Shown one piece after another: positions 36,249 through 46,209 of a DNA stretch of 64,000 bases. Positions within the stretch are counted from its first letter, which is position 1, and the number at the start of each line of letters is the position of its first letter. This DNA comes from Gemmatimonadota bacterium. Its GTDB lineage: Bacteria > Gemmatimonadota > Gemmatimonadetes > Longimicrobiales > Gaopeijiaceae. A model generated the notes under the pieces. That model did no database searches. It was not told where the DNA came from and worked only from the letters and a program-made list of their open reading frames with translations. Location of the stretch: the NCBI GenBank assembly GCA_029262115.1, contig JAJCZZ010000049.1, positions 1-64,000 of the forward strand. Direction: 5' to 3'. A program made the translations under genes and the position numbers.

Positions 36249-37817
36249 GTGACCCCGACGTTCGGGCGTCGGCACCTCGGGGTGCGAACGGTATTCGCGC
36301 CCACCGGCACCGAAGCCGCAGCCTTCGATGCTCGGGCTATTCGTGACCTGGATGTTCCGCAACGTGTGCTCATGGAGAACGCGGGCCGGGCCGCGTCTTT
36401 TCTGGTGGATCGCCTTTTCTCCATGGGCCCGATCGTCGTGGCGGCGGGCGGCGGCAACAACGGAGGGGACGCGCTCGTCGTGGCACGGATCCTTACCGCG
36501 TGGGGGCGCGAAGTCACCCTCGTGTGCGTCGGCGACGGGCACGACCGCGGCCTCCTTCACGGCTGGGACGTCCCCACGCTGGACGCGTCGTCGCTCGAAG
36601 CGGACGGATGGGCGGGCCTGATGCCTCTCGGGGCCACGGTGGTCGACGGCATCCTCGGCACCGGCCAGCGGGGAGCGCCGCGCGAGCCGCACGCCACCGC
36701 AATCGAACAGATCGTCCGGGTGGGTCGACCCGTCGTGGCGCTGGACGTACCGTCCGGGGTCAACGCCGATGACGGCTCCGTCCCCGGTGCGTCTATATGG
36801 GCCGACATGACGGTCGCGTTCGGGTCACCGAAGCTCGGGACGCTTCTGCACCCCGGTCGTGAGCGGGTTGGTCGGCTCGTGGCGGTCGAGATCGGCTTCC
36901 CACCCATGTCGAAGTCGGACGCGGGCGCACGGGTCATCACGGGGGGGTGGGCCGGGTCGGTCCTCCCCGAGCGGGCGTTGAACACCCACAAGAACGCGGT
37001 GGGTCGGGTGCTCATTGTGGCGGGCGGCCCGGAGATGCCGGGTGCCGCCGTGCTGAGCGCGCGGGCAGCCTTCCGGAGCGGTGCGGGGCTGGTTCAGGTG
37101 TGCGCACACCCGGACAACCGTGGTGTCCTTCAGGCCGCCGTTCCCGAAGCGATCTTCGTGTCGGGGAGCGATGCGGAGGCGGTCGCCTCGGCCGTGGAGC
37201 GGGCGGACACGATCGCGGTGGGACCCGGTCTCGGCACGGACGACTGGGCGGCTTCCCTCGTCTCGAGCGTTCTCGGCCGGGGCTCCTGCCCTCTGGTGCT
37301 GGATGCCGACGCGCTCACCCTCCTGGCCGATGGCGCGGTCGACGGGTGGCAGCGGGCGGTTCGCCAACGGCCCACTCTGATCACGCCGCACGCCGGAGAG
37401 ATGCGGCGCCTTCGGCCGCAGGAGTCGTCGAATGATCGGGTGGACCAAGCACGCGCGGCCGCAGATGCCTTGGGCGTCGCCGTGCTCTTCAAGGGTGCGC
37501 CGTCATTCGTGGCTGTCGGGGACGGACCGGTCTGGCTGTCGTCGGGCGGGTCCTCGGACCTTGCTGTGGCCGGAATGGGCGACGTGCTCACGGGTGTGTG
37601 TGCCGCGCTTGCCGCGCAGGGCCTGGCCCCGGAGGATGCCGGGGCCGTCGCGCTCCACCTCACTGGGACCGCGGCCCGAGCGGCGGCCCGCGGGGCGGGG
37701 ATGATCCCGAGTGACGTGGTGGAACGGCTTCCTGATGCCCTTCGCGACACGCGCGCCCCGGGGAGCGATCTCCTCGAGTGGCCCTTCGTGACGTTCGACG
37801 AGGAGGCTCCGTGGTGA
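36249..37817 (+). CDS. bifunctional NAD(P)HX epimerase/dehydratase
   Basis: Repairs hydrated NADH and NADPH: the N-terminal half (NnrE, about residues 1-220) is the epimerase, with LMENAGRAAS and the GGGNNGGDALVVAR motif, and the C-terminal half (NnrD, about 230-520) is the ADP/ATP-dependent dehydratase, with HKNAVGRVLIVAGG, GLGTDDW, DADAL, TPHAGEM and GMGDVLTG. Fused proteins are common in bacteria. GTG 36249 gives 522 residues; GTG 36282 is equally possible and begins closer to the conserved part. The stop overlaps thiL. Confidence 0.93.
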   Translation: MTPTFGRRHLGVRTVFAPTGTEAAAFDARAIRDLDVPQRVLMENAGRAASFLVDRLFSMGPIVVAAGGGNNGGDALVVARILTAWGREVTLVCVGDGHDRGLLHGWDVPTLDASSLEADGWAGLMPLGATVVDGILGTGQRGAPREPHATAIEQIVRVGRPVVALDVPSGVNADDGSVPGASIWADMTVAFGSPKLGTLLHPGRERVGRLVAVEIGFPPMSKSDAGARVITGGWAGSVLPERALNTHKNAVGRVLIVAGGPEMPGAAVLSARAAFRSGAGLVQVCAHPDNRGVLQAAVPEAIFVSGSDAEAVASAVERADTIAVGPGLGTDDWAASLVSSVLGRGSCPLVLDADALTLLADGAVDGWQRAVRQRPTLITPHAGEMRRLRPQESSNDRVDQARAAADALGVAVLFKGAPSFVAVGDGPVWLSSGGSSDLAVAGMGDVLTGVCAALAAQGLAPEDAGAVALHLTGTAARAAARGAGMIPSDVVERLPDALRDTRAPGSDLLEWPFVTFDEEAPW

Positions 37818-38797
37818 GCCGGGCTCCCGCACGGCTGGCGCTCGGTCCGGGCAAGGAGTTCGACGCGATTCGGGCGTTCGTCACGGGGGACGCGCTCCCG
37901 CGGGGGGTCTCCCTCGGACCCGGGGACGACGCGGCCGTGCTCGAGGGTGGCTGGGTCGTCAGTACGGACGCTTCAGTGGAAGGGATCCACTTCCGCCGTT
38001 CATGGATGACCGACCAGGAGGTCGGGTACCGGGCGACGGCGGCCGCGCTTTCGGACCTGTCCGCCATGGGCGCGCGTCCCGTCGCGGTTCTGGTGTCCGT
38101 CGCAGTTCCGCGCTCCCGCTTTTCGCTTGCCGATCTCCAGCGAGGCGTGCGGCTGGCCGCGGGCTCGGCCGGGGCCGCCGTCATCGGCGGGGACGTGTCC
38201 TCCTCGCCCGGGACCGTCTTCGTGGACGTTACCGTGCTTGGCAGAGCGGAGAGCCCGGTCCTACGTTCGGCCGCGCGACCCGGCCACGAGTTGTGGGTCT
38301 CCGGGACCCTGGGAGCGGCGGCGGCTGCGGTGCGGGTATGGGAGGCCGGTGACACAGGCACGGACCGTCTGCGTGAACGGTTCGTCCACCCACCTGACCG
38401 GAGCTCTTTGGGGCAGGAACTCGCGACCTTGGAGGGGCTCGGAGCCATGATCGATCTCTCGGACGGCGTCGCCGGCGATGCCGGCCATGTCGCAACGGGG
38501 TCGGGCGTCCGCCTGGTGGTGGAGGTCGCCGCACTGCCGGTAGCCGACGAGGCGCGCGCCGTCCTGTCCGACGCGGCGGCGGCGGCGTCCGCCCTCTACG
38601 GAGGAGAGGACTACGAGCTGATGTTCACCGCGGAGCCCGGCGCCTTCGATCCGATCGCGCTTTCCCATCGGCACGGCGTCGCACTCACGCGAGTGGGTCG
38701 GGTGAGCACGGGGGGCGGGGTGTGGCTGGAGGACGAGACAGGTGACCTGACCGCGATCCAGGCGGGTGGATACGATCACCTGGAGGACCGCGGATGA
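37814..38797 (+). CDS. thiL: thiamine-monophosphate kinase
   Basis: Phosphorylates thiamine monophosphate to the active diphosphate cofactor. The 327-residue PurM-like protein shows GPGDDAAVL, DASVEGIHFR and GYRATAAALSDLSAMGA, and the C-terminal MIDLSDGVAGDAGH and YGGEDYELMFT. GTG 37814 overlaps the stop of the preceding gene and has AGGAGG seven bases upstream, better spaced than GTG 37811. It is coupled to plsC by a 4-bp overlap. Confidence 0.94.
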   Translation: MSRAPARLALGPGKEFDAIRAFVTGDALPRGVSLGPGDDAAVLEGGWVVSTDASVEGIHFRRSWMTDQEVGYRATAAALSDLSAMGARPVAVLVSVAVPRSRFSLADLQRGVRLAAGSAGAAVIGGDVSSSPGTVFVDVTVLGRAESPVLRSAARPGHELWVSGTLGAAAAAVRVWEAGDTGTDRLRERFVHPPDRSSLGQELATLEGLGAMIDLSDGVAGDAGHVATGSGVRLVVEVAALPVADEARAVLSDAAAAASALYGGEDYELMFTAEPGAFDPIALSHRHGVALTRVGRVSTGGGVWLEDETGDLTAIQAGGYDHLEDRG

Positions 38798-39519
38798 TCT
38801 CGTTGATACGGGTATGCGTGACCATCATCCCGGCCACCCTGTGGTACGGAGCGAGGATCCTGCTCGAAGCCCGTAGGGGCCAACGGGCCGACCGAGCGCT
38901 TCTCGATGACCTGCCGCGCCGCTGGGCTCGACTTCTGCTACGGGCGGCGCGGGTGAAGGTCGTGCTCGAGAACGCCGAGGTCATCGATCCGGAGCGTCCA
39001 CAGATCGTGGTCGCGAATCATTCGTCGTGGTTCGACGTGCTCGCTCTCACGTCGGGCGTGCCGGGTCCCTATCGCTTCGTCGCGAAACAGGAGCTGGCCA
39101 GCGTTCCGGTGTTCGGTGCGGCATGGCAGGCGTGCGGGCATATCGCGATCGACCGTCACGATCGCCGCAGCGCCATCGCGTCGTTGGCGGTCGCCCGCAA
39201 GCGTCTCGAAGAGGATCGACCCACCGTCATCCTGTTTCCGGAGGGGACGCGCTCGGACGACGGAGAGTTGCGCCCGTTCAAGAAGGGTGCGTTCGTGCTG
39301 GCGATCGAGGCGGGCGTGGAGGTCGTACCCGTCGGCATCGTCGGAAGCTACGATGTCATGCGAAAAGGATCCTGGCTCATCCGACCCGGCACCGTCACGG
39401 TCCGCTTCGGCACGCCGATACCCGCGGAGGGCCGCGCCTTGGATGGTCGGGACGTTCTTGCCGCGGAGTCGCGCGACGCTGTGCAGATGCTGCTCGGGCC
39501 ACCACACCGAGACCCATAG
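38794..39519 (+). CDS. plsC: 1-acylglycerol-3-phosphate acyltransferase
   Basis: Membrane-bound acyltransferase that converts lysophosphatidic acid to phosphatidic acid. The 241-residue protein begins with a hydrophobic segment (about residues 1-24), followed by the catalytic HX4D motif in VANHSSWFDVL, the RFVAKQEL stretch and the FPEGTRSDDG motif that binds the glycerophosphate. It overlaps thiL by 4 bp and precedes enolase after a short gap. Confidence 0.92.
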   Translation: MISLIRVCVTIIPATLWYGARILLEARRGQRADRALLDDLPRRWARLLLRAARVKVVLENAEVIDPERPQIVVANHSSWFDVLALTSGVPGPYRFVAKQELASVPVFGAAWQACGHIAIDRHDRRSAIASLAVARKRLEEDRPTVILFPEGTRSDDGELRPFKKGAFVLAIEAGVEVVPVGIVGSYDVMRKGSWLIRPGTVTVRFGTPIPAEGRALDGRDVLAAESRDAVQMLLGPPHRDP

Positions 39520-39533
39520 ACCCCCGGAGGTAG

Positions 39534-40823
<1,290 letters not shown>

Positions 40824-40832
40824 CGACGCACC

Positions 40833-41147
40833 ATGTTCCGACTCTCCCGCCTGGCTCTCGCTGCCGTCGTGCTCCTGGCCGCGTATTTCGCGCTGTACGG
40901 CGGCGAGTACTCGTACGCGGAACTCCGCGCGGCGCGCGCGGCCGAGGATCGTGAACGCCAGGAGTTGGCCGAGCGCGAACGCCAGATCGACTCACTCAGG
41001 GCGTGGGCTGATTCGATGCAGGTGGACTCCGCGACCCTGGAACGCATTGCCCGCGAACGGTTCGGGATGATCCGCGAAGGCGAGGTGCTCTACCGGATCA
41101 TCGAGAGAGACACGGCCTCCGTGGACTCGGTGCCGCCGGTGGGGTAG
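40833..41147 (+). CDS. FtsB/DivIC-like septum formation initiator
   Basis: Short bitopic membrane protein of 104 residues with one N-terminal transmembrane helix (about 5-24) and a long coiled coil (about 27-75) rich in Arg, Glu and Ala. This is the pattern of FtsB/DivIC proteins of the division complex that bridge FtsQ and FtsL. The C-terminal RERFGMIREGEVLYRII segment matches the family. It follows enolase by nine bases, the order eno-ftsB being widespread in bacteria. Confidence 0.85.
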   Translation: MFRLSRLALAAVVLLAAYFALYGGEYSYAELRAARAAEDRERQELAERERQIDSLRAWADSMQVDSATLERIARERFGMIREGEVLYRIIERDTASVDSVPPVG

Positions 41148-41148
41148 T

Positions 41149-41820
41149 GTGGCTAGCCCCCGCCTTCTGCCGCCGGTGGACGGGCGGGTCGGTAAGCGTG
41201 TAGTCTGCGAGTTATGGACCGGAGGGTTCGCAGCAGAATCCCAAGATCATTGGGTCTCGAGCCTGAGAGGCGGTGCAGACCTGGAGTGTCGCGTCGGAGC
41301 CCTCGCTCAGGCTGGTGGCGTAGTTGTGGTAGATGCCGGGCTCGCTGAGATCCGAGTCTACGGCGCAAGCGGCGCCTTTGAGATAGGTATTGGTCGCGAA
41401 GGGGAGGGCCCGGGGGAGTTCGCGTGGCTCGGACATCTCGAGGTTAGCGGCGACACCATCCTCGTCTACGACCCGTCGCTCTTCCGCATGACACGGTTCC
41501 TTCGGGACGGACGCCTGCTTCAAACTCGTCAGATTCGTAGTGGCGGTAGCGCTCCTGAGTTGTTCGTTGGCACCTACTCCAATGGGGACGCCGCGTTCGG
41601 CGCGATCACCTCCATCGATCGTGACCCCGTGACCGCCTCGTCAGATCGGTGGACCCTCGGACGGTATGGACGTGACGGGAACTTGATTCGGACGGTGGGG
41701 ACCGGGGCCGGCTACCGTCGTCTCGGCGGTCCTCCGGTACCGTTCTCGGCGAGCCTTCACACCTTTCTACTCTCCGATTCGGTCTTCTATTCGGACGGCC
41801 GCAGTGCCAGCATCGGCGGG
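41149..41820 (+). pseudogene. truncated six-bladed beta-propeller gene
   Basis: The frame beginning at GTG 41149 is open to 42087, but only about the first 220 codons look like protein. They match the first blades of the secreted six-bladed beta-propeller (6-bladed NHL-like) proteins common in Gemmatimonadota and Bacteroidetes: AEIRVYGASGAFEIGIGREG and the GEGPGEF motif, then two more blades. No signal peptide precedes them, and after about residue 222 the frame becomes an Arg-rich shadow of the convergent gene. Both ends are therefore missing. The base composition is a little less GC-rich than the flanks. The end coordinate is approximate; I regard it as a non-functional remnant. Confidence 0.6.
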
Positions 41821-42525
41821 TCCGAGTCTCCTCGTCTGGTTCGCCGACGTGCTCGAGCTGTCCAACACGCGCAGGAGGCTCATGGTCGTGTCCTCGATCA
41901 GCGCCAACGTTCGGCGTTCGGTCCGCTTCCAGAAGGGCCGAGCAAAGATGAGTGGGAGCAGGCCGATCAGGAGCACGGTGGCCACGACGCCTATCTGTGC
42001 CTGGAGTCCCACCATGGCGGCCAGCACCGACAGAGCGAACGTGCCGAAGAACCAGGACAGCGTGAAGGTCCCGGTTCGGTCGGCTGAGACGCGGACATCG
42101 ATCCCGTCGTCGCGCTGTTCGACCGCGACCGTGGAGCGACCGAGCGCGCCGTCCTCGCCCCACACGAAACGGCCTTCCTTGCGCTCGAGAACCGTCCCTC
42201 TCCGTGCGAGCCCGGCTTCCGCCGCGCGCTCCAGTCCTGCGGTGTCGTCAGGCATTTCGACGCCCGTCAGGTGGGCGCGGACGTCCCGCCGAGATCCCGC
42301 GCCGAAGGCCACCGTGCCGAACGTCCTGGCCGGAGGGACACGCTCGATCAGGGCGGCACGTCGAACTTCCTGAGGTTCCAGTCCGACCGCTGCCGCCGCT
42401 TCCATGAGGTCCGAGACGGTCACCGCGTCTCCAACGTCGGGGCGTTGCAGGTCGTGCCTGGATGCCCGGGCCAGGATCCGGTCGGCTTCCGCCCGGTGGA
42501 CCCGCCGTGCGAGCGGTCCGCTCAT
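41767..42525 (-). CDS. hypothetical membrane protein, second gene of the SPFH operon
   Basis: A 252-residue protein that I cannot name. It has an N-terminal helical stretch (about 1-65) with a helix-turn-helix-like pattern (DLMEAAAAVGLEPQEVRRAAL), a middle soluble part, and two adjacent transmembrane helices (about 155-200, with WFFGTFALSVLAAMVGL and VVATVLLIGLLPLIF) followed by a short tail. The ATG at 42525 lies three bases after the stop of the SPFH gene, so the two are co-transcribed. The last 17-20 residues are read from DNA that on the other strand is the propeller remnant, suggesting that the original C terminus was replaced. Confidence 0.7.
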   Translation of the reverse strand: MSGPLARRVHRAEADRILARASRHDLQRPDVGDAVTVSDLMEAAAAVGLEPQEVRRAALIERVPPARTFGTVAFGAGSRRDVRAHLTGVEMPDDTAGLERAAEAGLARRGTVLERKEGRFVWGEDGALGRSTVAVEQRDDGIDVRVSADRTGTFTLSWFFGTFALSVLAAMVGLQAQIGVVATVLLIGLLPLIFARPFWKRTERRTLALIEDTTMSLLRVLDSSSTSANQTRRLGPADAGTAAVRIEDRIGE

Positions 42526-42528
42526 TCC

Positions 42529-43548
42529 TCAGTCTTGCGGATCTTCGACGTCGCTTCCGCGCACCTGGGACTCCAAGGCCACCTCGGCGGGCGAACGGAT
42601 CCCCGCGGTATCGCCGTCGGGCTTGCCCAGGACATGGCGTGCCGCCGCCTGTAGCGTGCTCGCCGACTCTCCATCCGGGAGCGACTCCACCATCGCCTCC
42701 GCGGCGCGTCGCAGCGTCTCCAGCTTCGCCTGGCGGTCTTCCTCGGAGTGGGGCTGGCTCCCGCTGTCCTGCAGGAGAGGACGGACGAGGTCGATCGGGA
42801 TGGGAAACAGCGTGGTCGAGTTGTTCTCTGCCGCGACCTCGACCACGGTCTGCAGGTAGCGCAACTGCAGGGCCACCGGGAACTGCTGAATCACGTCCGC
42901 CGCCAGGGCGAGCTTCGTCGAGGCCTGATATTCCCCCTCGGCCGCAATGACCTTCGCCCGCCGCTCCCGCTCGGCCTCGGCCTGCTTGGCCATGGCGCGC
43001 TTCATCTCCTGGGGAAGATCGATGTCCTTGATTTCGACACCCGTGACCTCGATACCCCACTGATCGGTACCCTCATCGATGATCTCCCGCACCACCTCAT
43101 TGATCCGGTCTCTCTCCGCGAGCAACTCGTCCAGCTCCGACTGCCCGATCACCGAGCGAAGCGTGGTCTGTGCGAGCTGGCTGGTGGCGAAGTAGTAGTC
43201 CTCGATCTCGATCACCGCCTTGGTTGGGTCGGCCACGCGGAAGTACACGACGGCGTTCACCCGCACGGACACGTTATCCTTCGTGATGGTGTCCTGGGGT
43301 GCGATGTCCAGGGCAACGATACGGAGGTCCATCTTCTGAAGCCGCTCGACACCGAACGGCAACAGGAAGATGAGCCCGGGCCCCTTTGCGCGGGTCAGCT
43401 TCCCGAGCCGGAAGACCACTCCGCGCTCGTATTCGTAGAGAACACGCAGGCTGGTGATGATGCCGAGGCCCAGGACAGCGAGAACGGGCCAGACGATCAG
43501 TCCGAGTTCCACGGAATCCTCCAGGAAGATGATGCGGACGGGTGCCAT
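42529..43548 (-). CDS. SPFH/stomatin-like membrane scaffold protein (slipin family)
   Basis: A 339-residue band-7 protein with an N-terminal membrane segment (about 13-33), the SPFH domain ([23 protein letters not shown] onward to about 215) with [24 protein letters not shown], and a C-terminal coiled coil and tail. The [24 protein letters not shown] segment is typical of slipins and prohibitin-like proteins that build membrane microdomains. It is the first gene of a minus-strand operon. No NfeD gene is adjacent. Confidence 0.9.
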
Positions 43549-43649
43549 TTCGGGACTCCGGACCCGCGTCCGGAGAAGTCACCCTCAGCGTCGCGTTCCG
43601 AGCCGACCAGCGCAAGCCGACGGCGCATGTGAGCGGACTGTATCGGCGG

Positions 43650-43679
43650 TTGACACGTACCCAGCCCCGGGAGAGCTTT
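43650..43679 (+). promoter_or_regulatory. candidate promoter of the tRNA gene
   Basis: A perfect TTGACA (43650-43655) is followed after 18 bases by AGCTTT (43674-43679), ten bases before the tRNA. The -10 is a poor match, so the assignment rests on the -35 and the position. The -35 with its next three bases, TTGACACGT, recurs at the exbB promoter (52600). Confidence 0.45.
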
Positions 43680-43688
43680 GTCAGCCCC

Positions 43689-43762
43689 GCCGGAGTAGCT
43701 CAGTCGGTTAGAGCAGCGGAATCATAATCCGCGTGTCGGGGGTTCGAGTCCCTCCTCCGGCA
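43689..43762 (+). tRNA. tRNA with anticodon CAU (probably elongator Met)
   Basis: Acceptor GCCGGAG (43689-43695) pairs with CTCCGGC (43755-43761), with A as discriminator. D arm GCTC/GAGC, anticodon stem GCGGA/TCCGC with loop ATCATAA (anticodon CAT), variable loop GTGTC and T arm GGGGG/CCCTC with TTCGAGT are all complete. G1-C72 pairing excludes initiator tRNA. CAU can also be the lysidine-modified Ile2 tRNA, which sequence alone does not exclude. The 3' CCA is not encoded (ATCCA follows). Confidence 0.95.
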
Positions 43763-43781
43763 TCCAGTTCCGAAGTCCGAG

Positions 43782-43819
43782 ACGGCCCCGTGGCGCGTGC
43801 TCACGTGGGCCGTTTCTTT
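43782..43819 (+). terminator. terminator of the tRNA gene
   Basis: ACGGCCC-CGTG (43782-43792) pairs with CACG-T-GGGCCGT (43802-43813), an 11-bp stem with one bulged T, followed by TTCTTT (43814-43819). It ends the tRNA transcript 20 bases after the gene. Confidence 0.8.
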
Positions 43820-43888
43820 GCCGGACCTGCAGCCCGCGGGGCACCTCTGACTATGTTGGGCCGATCGTTCAAGACGAGGGGGCGGCGC

Positions 43889-44266
43889 ATGGAGTATTCG
43901 TTCTCGACGGACGCTGGATTCGCGGAGGTTCACCTGACGGGACAGTCCGAGCCGGGCTGTTTTCGCGAGATCTTCGACGCCCTGGAGGAGAATGCGTCAT
44001 GGCGACCGGGCATGCCGCTCCTGATCGACAAGACGGAGTACGACACGAGCCGGCTCACCGTCGGCGATGTGCATGTCATCGCCCGGACTTGCTCCGACCG
44101 CAAGGACATCGTCGGGCGTTCCCGCATTGCCGTGCTCGTGGCGCGCGACATTGAGTACGGCATGAACCGGATGTTCGAGGTGTTCGTCCGGTGGGACGCG
44201 GATTTCGGGCTTTTCCGAGAGCGGGAGGCAGCGGTCGATTGGGTCTGCGGGCGCGTCGCTGTTTGA
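43889..44266 (+). CDS. SpoIIAA/STAS-like protein
   Basis: A 125-residue protein with alternating strands and helices of the SpoIIAA-like (STAS/SEC14-related) type: an N-terminal strand pair (MEYSFSTDAGFAEVHLTG), then LLIDKTEYDTSRLTVGDVHVIA and IAVLVARDIEYGMNRMFEVF. It lacks the D-S-S-G serine of true anti-sigma antagonists, so phosphorylation control is not indicated. ATG 43889 has AGGGGG about ten bases upstream; ATG 43853 is also in frame. The gene is isolated between the tRNA terminator and a convergent minus-strand operon. Family assignment is tentative. Confidence 0.6.
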   Translation: MEYSFSTDAGFAEVHLTGQSEPGCFREIFDALEENASWRPGMPLLIDKTEYDTSRLTVGDVHVIARTCSDRKDIVGRSRIAVLVARDIEYGMNRMFEVFVRWDADFGLFREREAAVDWVCGRVAV

Positions 44267-44272
44267 CGCCCC

Positions 44273-44947
44273 CTAACGGTGGTGGTTGGCCGGTGGGTCC
44301 TCGTGCCGCGCCATGACCCACAAGACCCACGTTCCAGCCACGAGAGAGCCGACCATGAGGAGCTGTGCGACCGTTCGGAAGGACCGCGCGATCTCCGCGT
44401 CCTTCGACAGACGCCCGAAGCGCATCAGAAGGTAGGTCCAGTCGTGGCTGTCGGAGTCCACCGGTCCGAAAGGTGACACGAGCGGAAGCGCTTGAGCCCG
44501 AGCGTCGCCAGCGTAGGCCGCGATACCCCACATCGCGGTTCCCATCCAGAAGAGGCACACCAGCGCACCGAATGGATCTCGCTGCTTGATCAGCAGGTAG
44601 AGCGCCGCGACCAGCGGGATCCCGAGTTCGAAGAGCGTTCCCCCAGCGACGGTCAGGAGACGGTTGCCGGTGTACATGAACACGGCGTGTCCCATCTCGT
44701 GGAAACCGAGGGAGACGCCGTCGAACATCGACGTGTGGAGTGGGTCGCCGGGGTACCCCTGGTACATCCAGGCCAGGAGCAGGAGTAGCGGCAGCCGGTA
44801 ATACCAGACCTGATGTTCCACCCTCCTGGCCAGCCATCCGGTGACGCCACCGAGGGCCGCAACGGTTTGGCCGCCCGCCTCTTCCCGGCGCGCGCGGGCC
44901 GCTTCGTCCTGGCGCGCGCGGGCCGCGCGAAAGGGGTTGGTCTCCAT
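44273..44947 (-). CDS. membrane protein with HExxH motif (possible metalloprotease)
   Basis: A 224-residue protein with about four to five hydrophobic segments and the zinc-binding motif H-E-M-G-H in GFHEMGHAVFMYTGN, located inside or next to a membrane helix as in M50/site-2-protease-like enzymes. The N-terminal part is charged and cytosolic. I cannot identify a family, and a second metal ligand is not obvious, so an M50-like activity is only a suggestion. It is the second gene of an operon behind the secreted amidohydrolase, two bases apart. Confidence 0.65.
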   Translation of the reverse strand: METNPFRAARARQDEAARARREEAGGQTVAALGGVTGWLARRVEHQVWYYRLPLLLLLAWMYQGYPGDPLHTSMFDGVSLGFHEMGHAVFMYTGNRLLTVAGGTLFELGIPLVAALYLLIKQRDPFGALVCLFWMGTAMWGIAAYAGDARAQALPLVSPFGPVDSDSHDWTYLLMRFGRLSKDAEIARSFRTVAQLLMVGSLVAGTWVLWVMARHEDPPANHHR

Positions 44948-44949
44948 GG

Positions 44950-46209
44950 CTAGGGCAGGATTACCCCGCCCTTCATCACCAGGACCACCTCCCGCAAAGC
45001 CGAGAGATTCCGCGTCGGATCGCCGTCCACGGCCACCAGGTCGGCCAACAGACCCGGCCGTACGCGTCCCCGGTCGTCCAGTCCGAAGATGTCTGCGTTC
45101 CCCGCCGTCGCAGCCCGAAGTACCGCGACCCGGTCCATGCCGTACTCGTTCATCAGTTCGAGTTCACGAACGTTGTCTCCGTGGGAATAGACGCCGACGT
45201 CCCCCCCGAAGCACATGTCGACCCCCGCACGCAGAGCGGCGCTGAAGCTTTCCTTCTTCCGCCCGATCCGGGCGGGCTCGGGGTCGGCTCCCTTCCGCCA
45301 GCCGTTGTACTGGAGGATCGCGTCACCGGCCGCGAGGGTGGGGCAGAACGCGACGCCCCGCTCGGCCATCAGTCGGAAGATCTCCACGGTGCCGCCGTCC
45401 CCGTGCTCGATCGTCCGAACACCGGCGAGCGCGGCCCGCTCCATCCCTTCGGGTGTCGACGCGTGGGCAACCACGTAGCGGCCCGACGACGCGGCCGTTT
45501 GAACGACCACCCCGATCTCTTCGACCGAGTAGGTGGGCCGAGCCTGACCATTCGGGCCCCACCGATAGTCCGCGTAGACTTTTACCCAATCGGCGCCTCG
45601 TCCAATCTGGTCACGGGTCACACGGACGAGGTCGTCGTACCCGTCGGCGGCCTCCGCCCCCAGCGGAAGGCTCCACTCGGGCGCCCCTTTCGGATTGTAC
45701 GATCCGGTCGCCACCAGCGCGCGGCCGGCCACCAGCATCCGCGGACCGGGCACGACCCCCTTGTCGACGGCCGACTTGAGGCCGACATCTCCGTACCCCG
45801 CGCCTTCGCTACCCAGGTCCCGAACGGTTGTGATTCCGGCCCTCAGCGTGGCCTCGGCGTGCACGACGCCGCGCGCGATACGTTCGCCGAGCGGCTCGAG
45901 CAGAACCTGATCGGTCCAAGGGGTTTCGTCGTACGGATGCAACAGTAGATGGCTGTGGCCCTCGATCATCCCCGGCATCAGGGTGGCGCCGGGCAGGTCG
46001 ACCACGCGCACGCCGCCCCCGGCGGGAATCGACGGACCCGCCGCCGCGATTTGCCCATCTCGAACGAGGACCGACCAGCCCTCCTGCATGACGTCGCCAT
46101 CGAAGACCCGCGCGGGCCGGAGCAGGACCGCCTCCTGGGAAGCGCCGAGCGTCGGAGCCAGGGCCGCGAGGGCGAGGAGAGTCGAGCCGAGCAGGAGGGG
46201 ACGGCGCAT
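44950..46209 (-). CDS. secreted amidohydrolase (imidazolonepropionase/prolidase-like)
   Basis: A 419-residue metal-dependent hydrolase with a cleavable signal peptide (about residues 1-23, hydrophobic core LLLGSTLLALAAL, end LGASQ). Family motifs are GHSHLLLH (metal His pair), ADWVKVYAD (possible carboxylated lysine), VAHASTPEG and IEHGDG (further His ligands), and GGDVGVY (Asp). Periplasmic members of this group are typically peptidases or dipeptidases, often expanded in Gemmatimonadota. The substrate is unknown. It is divergent from the gene at 46395. Confidence 0.88.
   Translation of the reverse strand: MRRPLLLGSTLLALAALAPTLGASQEAVLLRPARVFDGDVMQEGWSVLVRDGQIAAAGPSIPAGGGVRVVDLPGATLMPGMIEGHSHLLLHPYDETPWTDQVLLEPLGERIARGVVHAEATLRAGITTVRDLGSEGAGYGDVGLKSAVDKGVVPGPRMLVAGRALVATGSYNPKGAPEWSLPLGAEAADGYDDLVRVTRDQIGRGADWVKVYADYRWGPNGQARPTYSVEEIGVVVQTAASSGRYVVAHASTPEGMERAALAGVRTIEHGDGGTVEIFRLMAERGVAFCPTLAAGDAILQYNGWRKGADPEPARIGRKKESFSAALRAGVDMCFGGDVGVYSHGDNVRELELMNEYGMDRVAVLRAATAGNADIFGLDDRGRVRPGLLADLVAVDGDPTRNLSALREVVLVMKGGVILP

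Follow-up and report, generated by a model that had tools for sequence, protein, structure and literature searches.

A fragment of a six-bladed β-propeller gene has very probably been inserted at the tail-to-tail junction between divIC and a convergent gene for a putative membrane protein, thereby giving the latter an additional C-terminal tail. The junction lies in a window of 64,000 nucleotides, the whole stretch analysed, from the Gemmatimonadota bacterium contig JAJCZZ010000049.1 (assembly GCA_029262115.1). The coordinates of its features are collected in Table 1. The first-pass annotation had proposed that a rearrangement joined the propeller sequence and the convergent gene. The substance of this proposal holds, although the event is better described as insertion of a fragment than as the joining of two long-standing neighbours.

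In the sequence of events that we favour, about 0.65–0.69 kb of DNA, comprising an 86-bp repeat followed by approximately the middle half of a six-bladed propeller gene, would have entered a nearly spacerless junction at which divIC faces a putative membrane gene linked to an SPFH gene. The insert would have separated the membrane gene from its native stop codon, and its translation would then continue along the antisense of the propeller piece until it first meets an in-frame stop, a gain of about 20 residues of which 15–18 are antisense. We infer one insertion event rather than several.

Table 1 Features of the divIC junction in the window
Feature	Positions	Strand	Basis or remark
eno (enolase), left-flanking gene of the conserved block	39534–40823	+	tblastn, 76–84% identity in 7 syntenic relatives
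divIC (septum formation initiator, FtsB-like), the gene preceding the insert	40833–41147	+	Pfam PF04977, 45 bits; syntenic in 7/7 relatives
Candidate native stop (TAG) of the convergent gene	41153–41155	-	5 bp past the divIC stop; flank-joining model
Dispersed repeat, left edge of the inserted DNA	41161–41246	+	86 bases, 87 aligned columns
Six-bladed β-propeller remnant, roughly the middle half	41269–41823	+	left limit judged visually on the alignment
Convergent putative membrane protein (P0002)	41767–42525	-	252 aa; body is residues 1–229
Extra C-terminal tail of P0002	41767–41838	-	residues 230–252 and the stop; absent in 7/7 relatives
SPFH/Band 7 protein, partner encoded 3 bp upstream of P0002	42529–43548	-	Pfam PF01145, 134 bits

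Gene order at the junction in related genomes

A search of 121 family genomes for the convergent protein gave a match at E ≤ 0.001 in 22, including the genome under study. Gene order was then taken for the seven best loci from the 21 other genomes. All seven (L063–L069) show the order thiL-plsC-eno-divIC facing the convergent gene and the SPFH gene, as does the window at 37778–43548; the names eno, thiL and plsC are ones that we presume for these block genes. The SPFH protein is 71–81% identical in the seven relatives, and the convergent protein is 28–39% identical between the window and the relatives. The stops of divIC and the convergent gene lie -11, -4, 3, 4, 9, 14 and 30 bp apart in the relatives, compared with 619 bp in the window, and the relative with the -11 bp overlap is the sole other genome of the same genus in the set. 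Neither a propeller between divIC and the convergent gene nor a similar tail is present in any of these seven syntenic relatives. In a leave-one-out comparison, six of the relatives' proteins stop 0–1 residues beyond their homologous envelope and one (L068) stops 10 residues beyond it. Thus, as the first-pass annotation had anticipated, the native C terminus is found in relatives without the tail (7/7), abutting divIC, and propeller genes are found separately, elsewhere in the same genome and in related ones.

The junction was also approached from its other side. Of 117 family genomes, 107 yielded divIC, and its 30 best loci were compared; among the other 77 divIC-bearing genomes, the junction was looked at in one (G062). 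A partner resembling the convergent gene faces divIC at seven of these 30 loci, including that of the window. At a further 16, the SPFH gene faces divIC without a clear copy of the convergent gene, the end of the SPFH match and the divIC stop being 9–195 bp apart; at the remaining seven, neither partner lies within the stretch examined. A propeller match near divIC was seen at only one of the 30 loci, namely that of the window.

Several points temper the insertion reading. The state before insertion is reconstructed over a large distance, given that the relatives are just 28–39% identical in the convergent protein. The roughly 10 residues past the envelope in L068 show that the tails of this protein vary somewhat without any insert. 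The repeat and the propeller piece, moreover, might have arrived separately, in two steps.

The propeller remnant and the tail of the convergent protein

A profile built from seven same-family propeller frames matches 41302–41823 (residues 52–225 of the plus-strand frame) with 158 bits, and in pairwise comparison with intact propellers the eight top matches run out at 41799–41838, which bears out the earlier placement of the propeller end near 41815. The matched region spans residues 87–259 of two intact 405-codon frames (L079 and L080), so that both ends are missing, as the first-pass annotation had noted. Pfam PF17170 (DUF5128) gave 19.1 and 20.3 bits against the remnant, both under the gathering score of 22.9. 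Longer members of that family that look intact, in this genome and in others of the bacterial family, align with the remnant, which differs from them in being truncated at both ends and in its Pfam score below gathering. Judged from these alignments, it is a pseudogene fragment that lacks the N-terminal (secretion) region and the C-terminal half, rather than a working member; by eye, it has no signal peptide. The plus-strand frame that contains it, from a GTG at 41149 to 42087, is open with no stop through the remnant, and the event is therefore probably recent relative to decay. For the remnant, the GC content at third codon positions (GC3) is 0.68, below the 0.79–0.86 of nine flanking-gene segments but within the range of propellers of the same genome (mean 0.74, s.d. 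0.085, n = 27 segments, with a few genes counted twice).

On the opposite strand, residues 7–226 of the convergent protein match a profile from the seven syntenic relatives (173 bits, envelope to residue 229), and the homologous body reaches down to 41839–41850. Both this score and the 158 bits of the propeller profile are far beyond chance, the associated E-values of about 1e-50 referring to one-sequence searches. Searches of Pfam and NCBIfam with the convergent protein gave nothing above the Pfam cut-off and no NCBIfam match; two hydrophobic stretches were judged by eye. The gene ends at the TAG at 41767–41769, in agreement with the stop given by the first-pass annotation, so that the protein continues 23 residues beyond its homologous envelope, compared with 0–10 in the relatives. 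Residues 238–252, or 235–252 if the longer propeller end is taken, are antisense to propeller sequence. The antisense character of the tail is therefore as first described, but its extent is 15–18 residues and not the 17–20 initially counted. The right-hand junction can be placed to about 41815–41848, close to the 41.8 kb suggested earlier. Neither microhomology nor target duplication at the candidate edges exceeded chance, the microhomology being 4 bp, a length reached by 97% of 300 random pairs.

The first-pass annotation had further held that the original C terminus of the convergent protein was replaced. Its native stop would have been lost, but since the relatives' proteins stop 0–10 residues past the envelope, the C terminus itself was probably lengthened for the most part and not replaced. 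In its three antisense frames, each of about 182 codons, the remnant has 2, 2 and 9 stops, so that a tail of about 20 residues is unremarkable and such as chance gives. The tail follows the conserved body and for this reason is probably neutral, an accident of little effect, and the tailed protein would remain functional. A 185-aa mechanical open reading frame (41606–42163, minus strand) uses a different frame, overlaps both the convergent gene and the remnant, and looks like a product of chance.

The open plus-strand frame (41149–42087, 312 aa) could itself be a new, translated chimeric gene coupled to divIC and overlapping the convergent gene by 321 bp. The frame is open throughout, and its GTG is separated from the divIC stop by 1 bp. 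However, the product would be half a propeller with no secretion signal by eye, roughly its final 87 residues come from the antisense strand of a conserved gene, and the other 29 divIC loci have no propeller at the same place, all of which makes a working gene here extremely improbable. There is also no sigma-70-type promoter match in 40800–42000, which says little as about 0.1 would be expected by chance; more generally, the counts of promoter-like and terminator-like sites in this interval (0 and 0, compared with 0.1 and 0.6 from shuffled sequences) are uninformative.

The genome (5.45 Mb) contains 42 propeller matches at E ≤ 0.01, the remnant included. These propeller genes form a large and diverse set, mostly frames of 300–565 codons. 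The best-scoring match to the remnant is 33% identical over 165 residues, with shorter matches of up to 47% over some 43 residues. Across the family and order, the best matches are 37–40% identical over about 170 residues, and one genome (G047) has a shorter match of 51% over 81 residues. At the DNA level, among the family matches listed (four scored per genome), most are 23–56 bases long, the majority of these around the GREGEGPGEF motif, and one is 68% identical over 180 bases; phages and plasmids gave no match to the DNA of the propeller piece. Thus, no gene close enough to be its donor was found in the same genome, the family, the order, phages or plasmids.

The abundance of propellers in this genome bears on two other accounts of the locus. 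In the first, a complete propeller gene would have been inserted, and later deletions would have taken its start, its C-terminal half and the native stop of the convergent gene. The 41 other matches, which point to a large and possibly expanding family, agree with such decay in place, as does the open frame of the remnant, which indicates that the loss is probably recent. We nevertheless regard this course as unlikely: a propeller accompanies divIC in the window's own locus only (1/30), and the fixed edge of the repeat together with the candidate native stop to the left of the fragment fit a single insertion at least as well. In the second account, a short propeller-bearing segment was misjoined into the contig during assembly. 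In its favour, the genome is fragmented (110 contigs), has an estimated contamination of 2.74% and carries many propeller genes. For an artefact, however, the contig would have to be misjoined at two points separated by about 0.65 kb, between flanks whose synteny is genuine, and the genome offers no near-identical propeller copy to confuse, the sole shared DNA found being the repeat at 83% identity. We consider this very unlikely.

The left edge of the probable insert

The insertion reading is also informed by the left side of the fragment. Thirteen bases after the divIC stop begins a dispersed repeat, of which two further copies occur in the same genome, at 23468–23554 of contig C95 and 4404–4479 of contig C51, the copies being 76–87 bp long. 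The window copy is 83% identical to the C95 copy over 87 columns and 83% identical to the C51 copy over the first 47, while the C95 and C51 copies resemble each other over 76. The three copies share one sharp left edge with the same first base and differ in their right extent. The first 24 bases occur exactly at three places in the genome, and at two more with 3 mismatches, compared with two for a reversed control. The C95 and window copies differ by 13 transitions, 1 transversion and 1 gap. The C95 copy sits just upstream of a HAD hydrolase gene. Since the repeat ends near the start of the propeller piece, the inserted DNA would consist of the repeat followed by the propeller fragment.

In 116 other family genomes, with up to seven candidates scored per genome, the repeat gave short matches only (18–34 bases among those listed), which were taken as chance; 23 of the 116 have matches at E 5e-4 to 0.05. 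Other identities for the repeat were considered and set aside. As an RNA, it was not recovered in an Rfam search of 38000–45000 at E up to 1, in which tRNA-Met alone reached its gathering score and the other match, Plastid-ycf2, was far below its own. As an integron cassette site, it would be expected in arrays, and no further copies were found at E 0.01 in the 18 kb surrounding the C95 copy or the 12 kb surrounding the C51 copy. A suspected resemblance of the open reading frame beside the C51 copy to PIN-like proteins was dropped when Pfam gave no match. It is conceivable, if quite unlikely, that the repeat is the end of a small, undescribed mobile element, peculiar to this lineage, which carries along or captures adjoining gene pieces and which delivered the propeller fragment here; were this so, an old gene would have gained a new, antisense-derived C terminus through an element.

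Between the divIC stop and the repeat lies a minus-strand TAG that, when the flanks are rejoined at 37 trial right edges, falls in frame with the convergent gene at 12 of them. Its position fits that of a lost native stop because the gaps in the relatives run from -11 to +30 bp. These features are suggestive only: the TAG may be a fossil of the native stop, and could also be a chance TAG.

Parallels to known extensions and meaning of the proposed insertion

The kind of event proposed here, in which a native stop is lost and a protein is extended into foreign sequence, is already known. In stop-loss C-terminal extension (Andreatta et al. 2015, PMC4494051), non-native sequence likewise becomes a short new C terminus, and, as in stop loss, the orthologues of the convergent protein end earlier and at a conserved place in all seven syntenic relatives. 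Those cases are polymorphic extensions into noncoding sequence in Saccharomyces and Drosophila. By contrast, the extension described here is attributed to an insertion, and what it adds is the antisense of a gene remnant. A second parallel is provided by overlaps that arise through elongation of the 3' end (Fonseca et al. 2013, PMC3887535), in which the native stop is likewise lost and the next one, located in the neighbour, is used. That work simulates same-strand overlaps arising by nucleotide change, whereas the overlap in the window is convergent, on opposite strands, and with a pseudogene fragment. A search of the literature on Gemmatimonadota propellers returned nothing related by title, and we make no claim that the event type is absent from print.

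This case changes no general view and is an ordinary genome scar. It provides a clean example in which insertion at a tail-to-tail junction would give an old protein a C terminus read from the antisense strand of an unrelated pseudogene fragment, and it suggests that spacerless convergent junctions are exposed to such tail gain.
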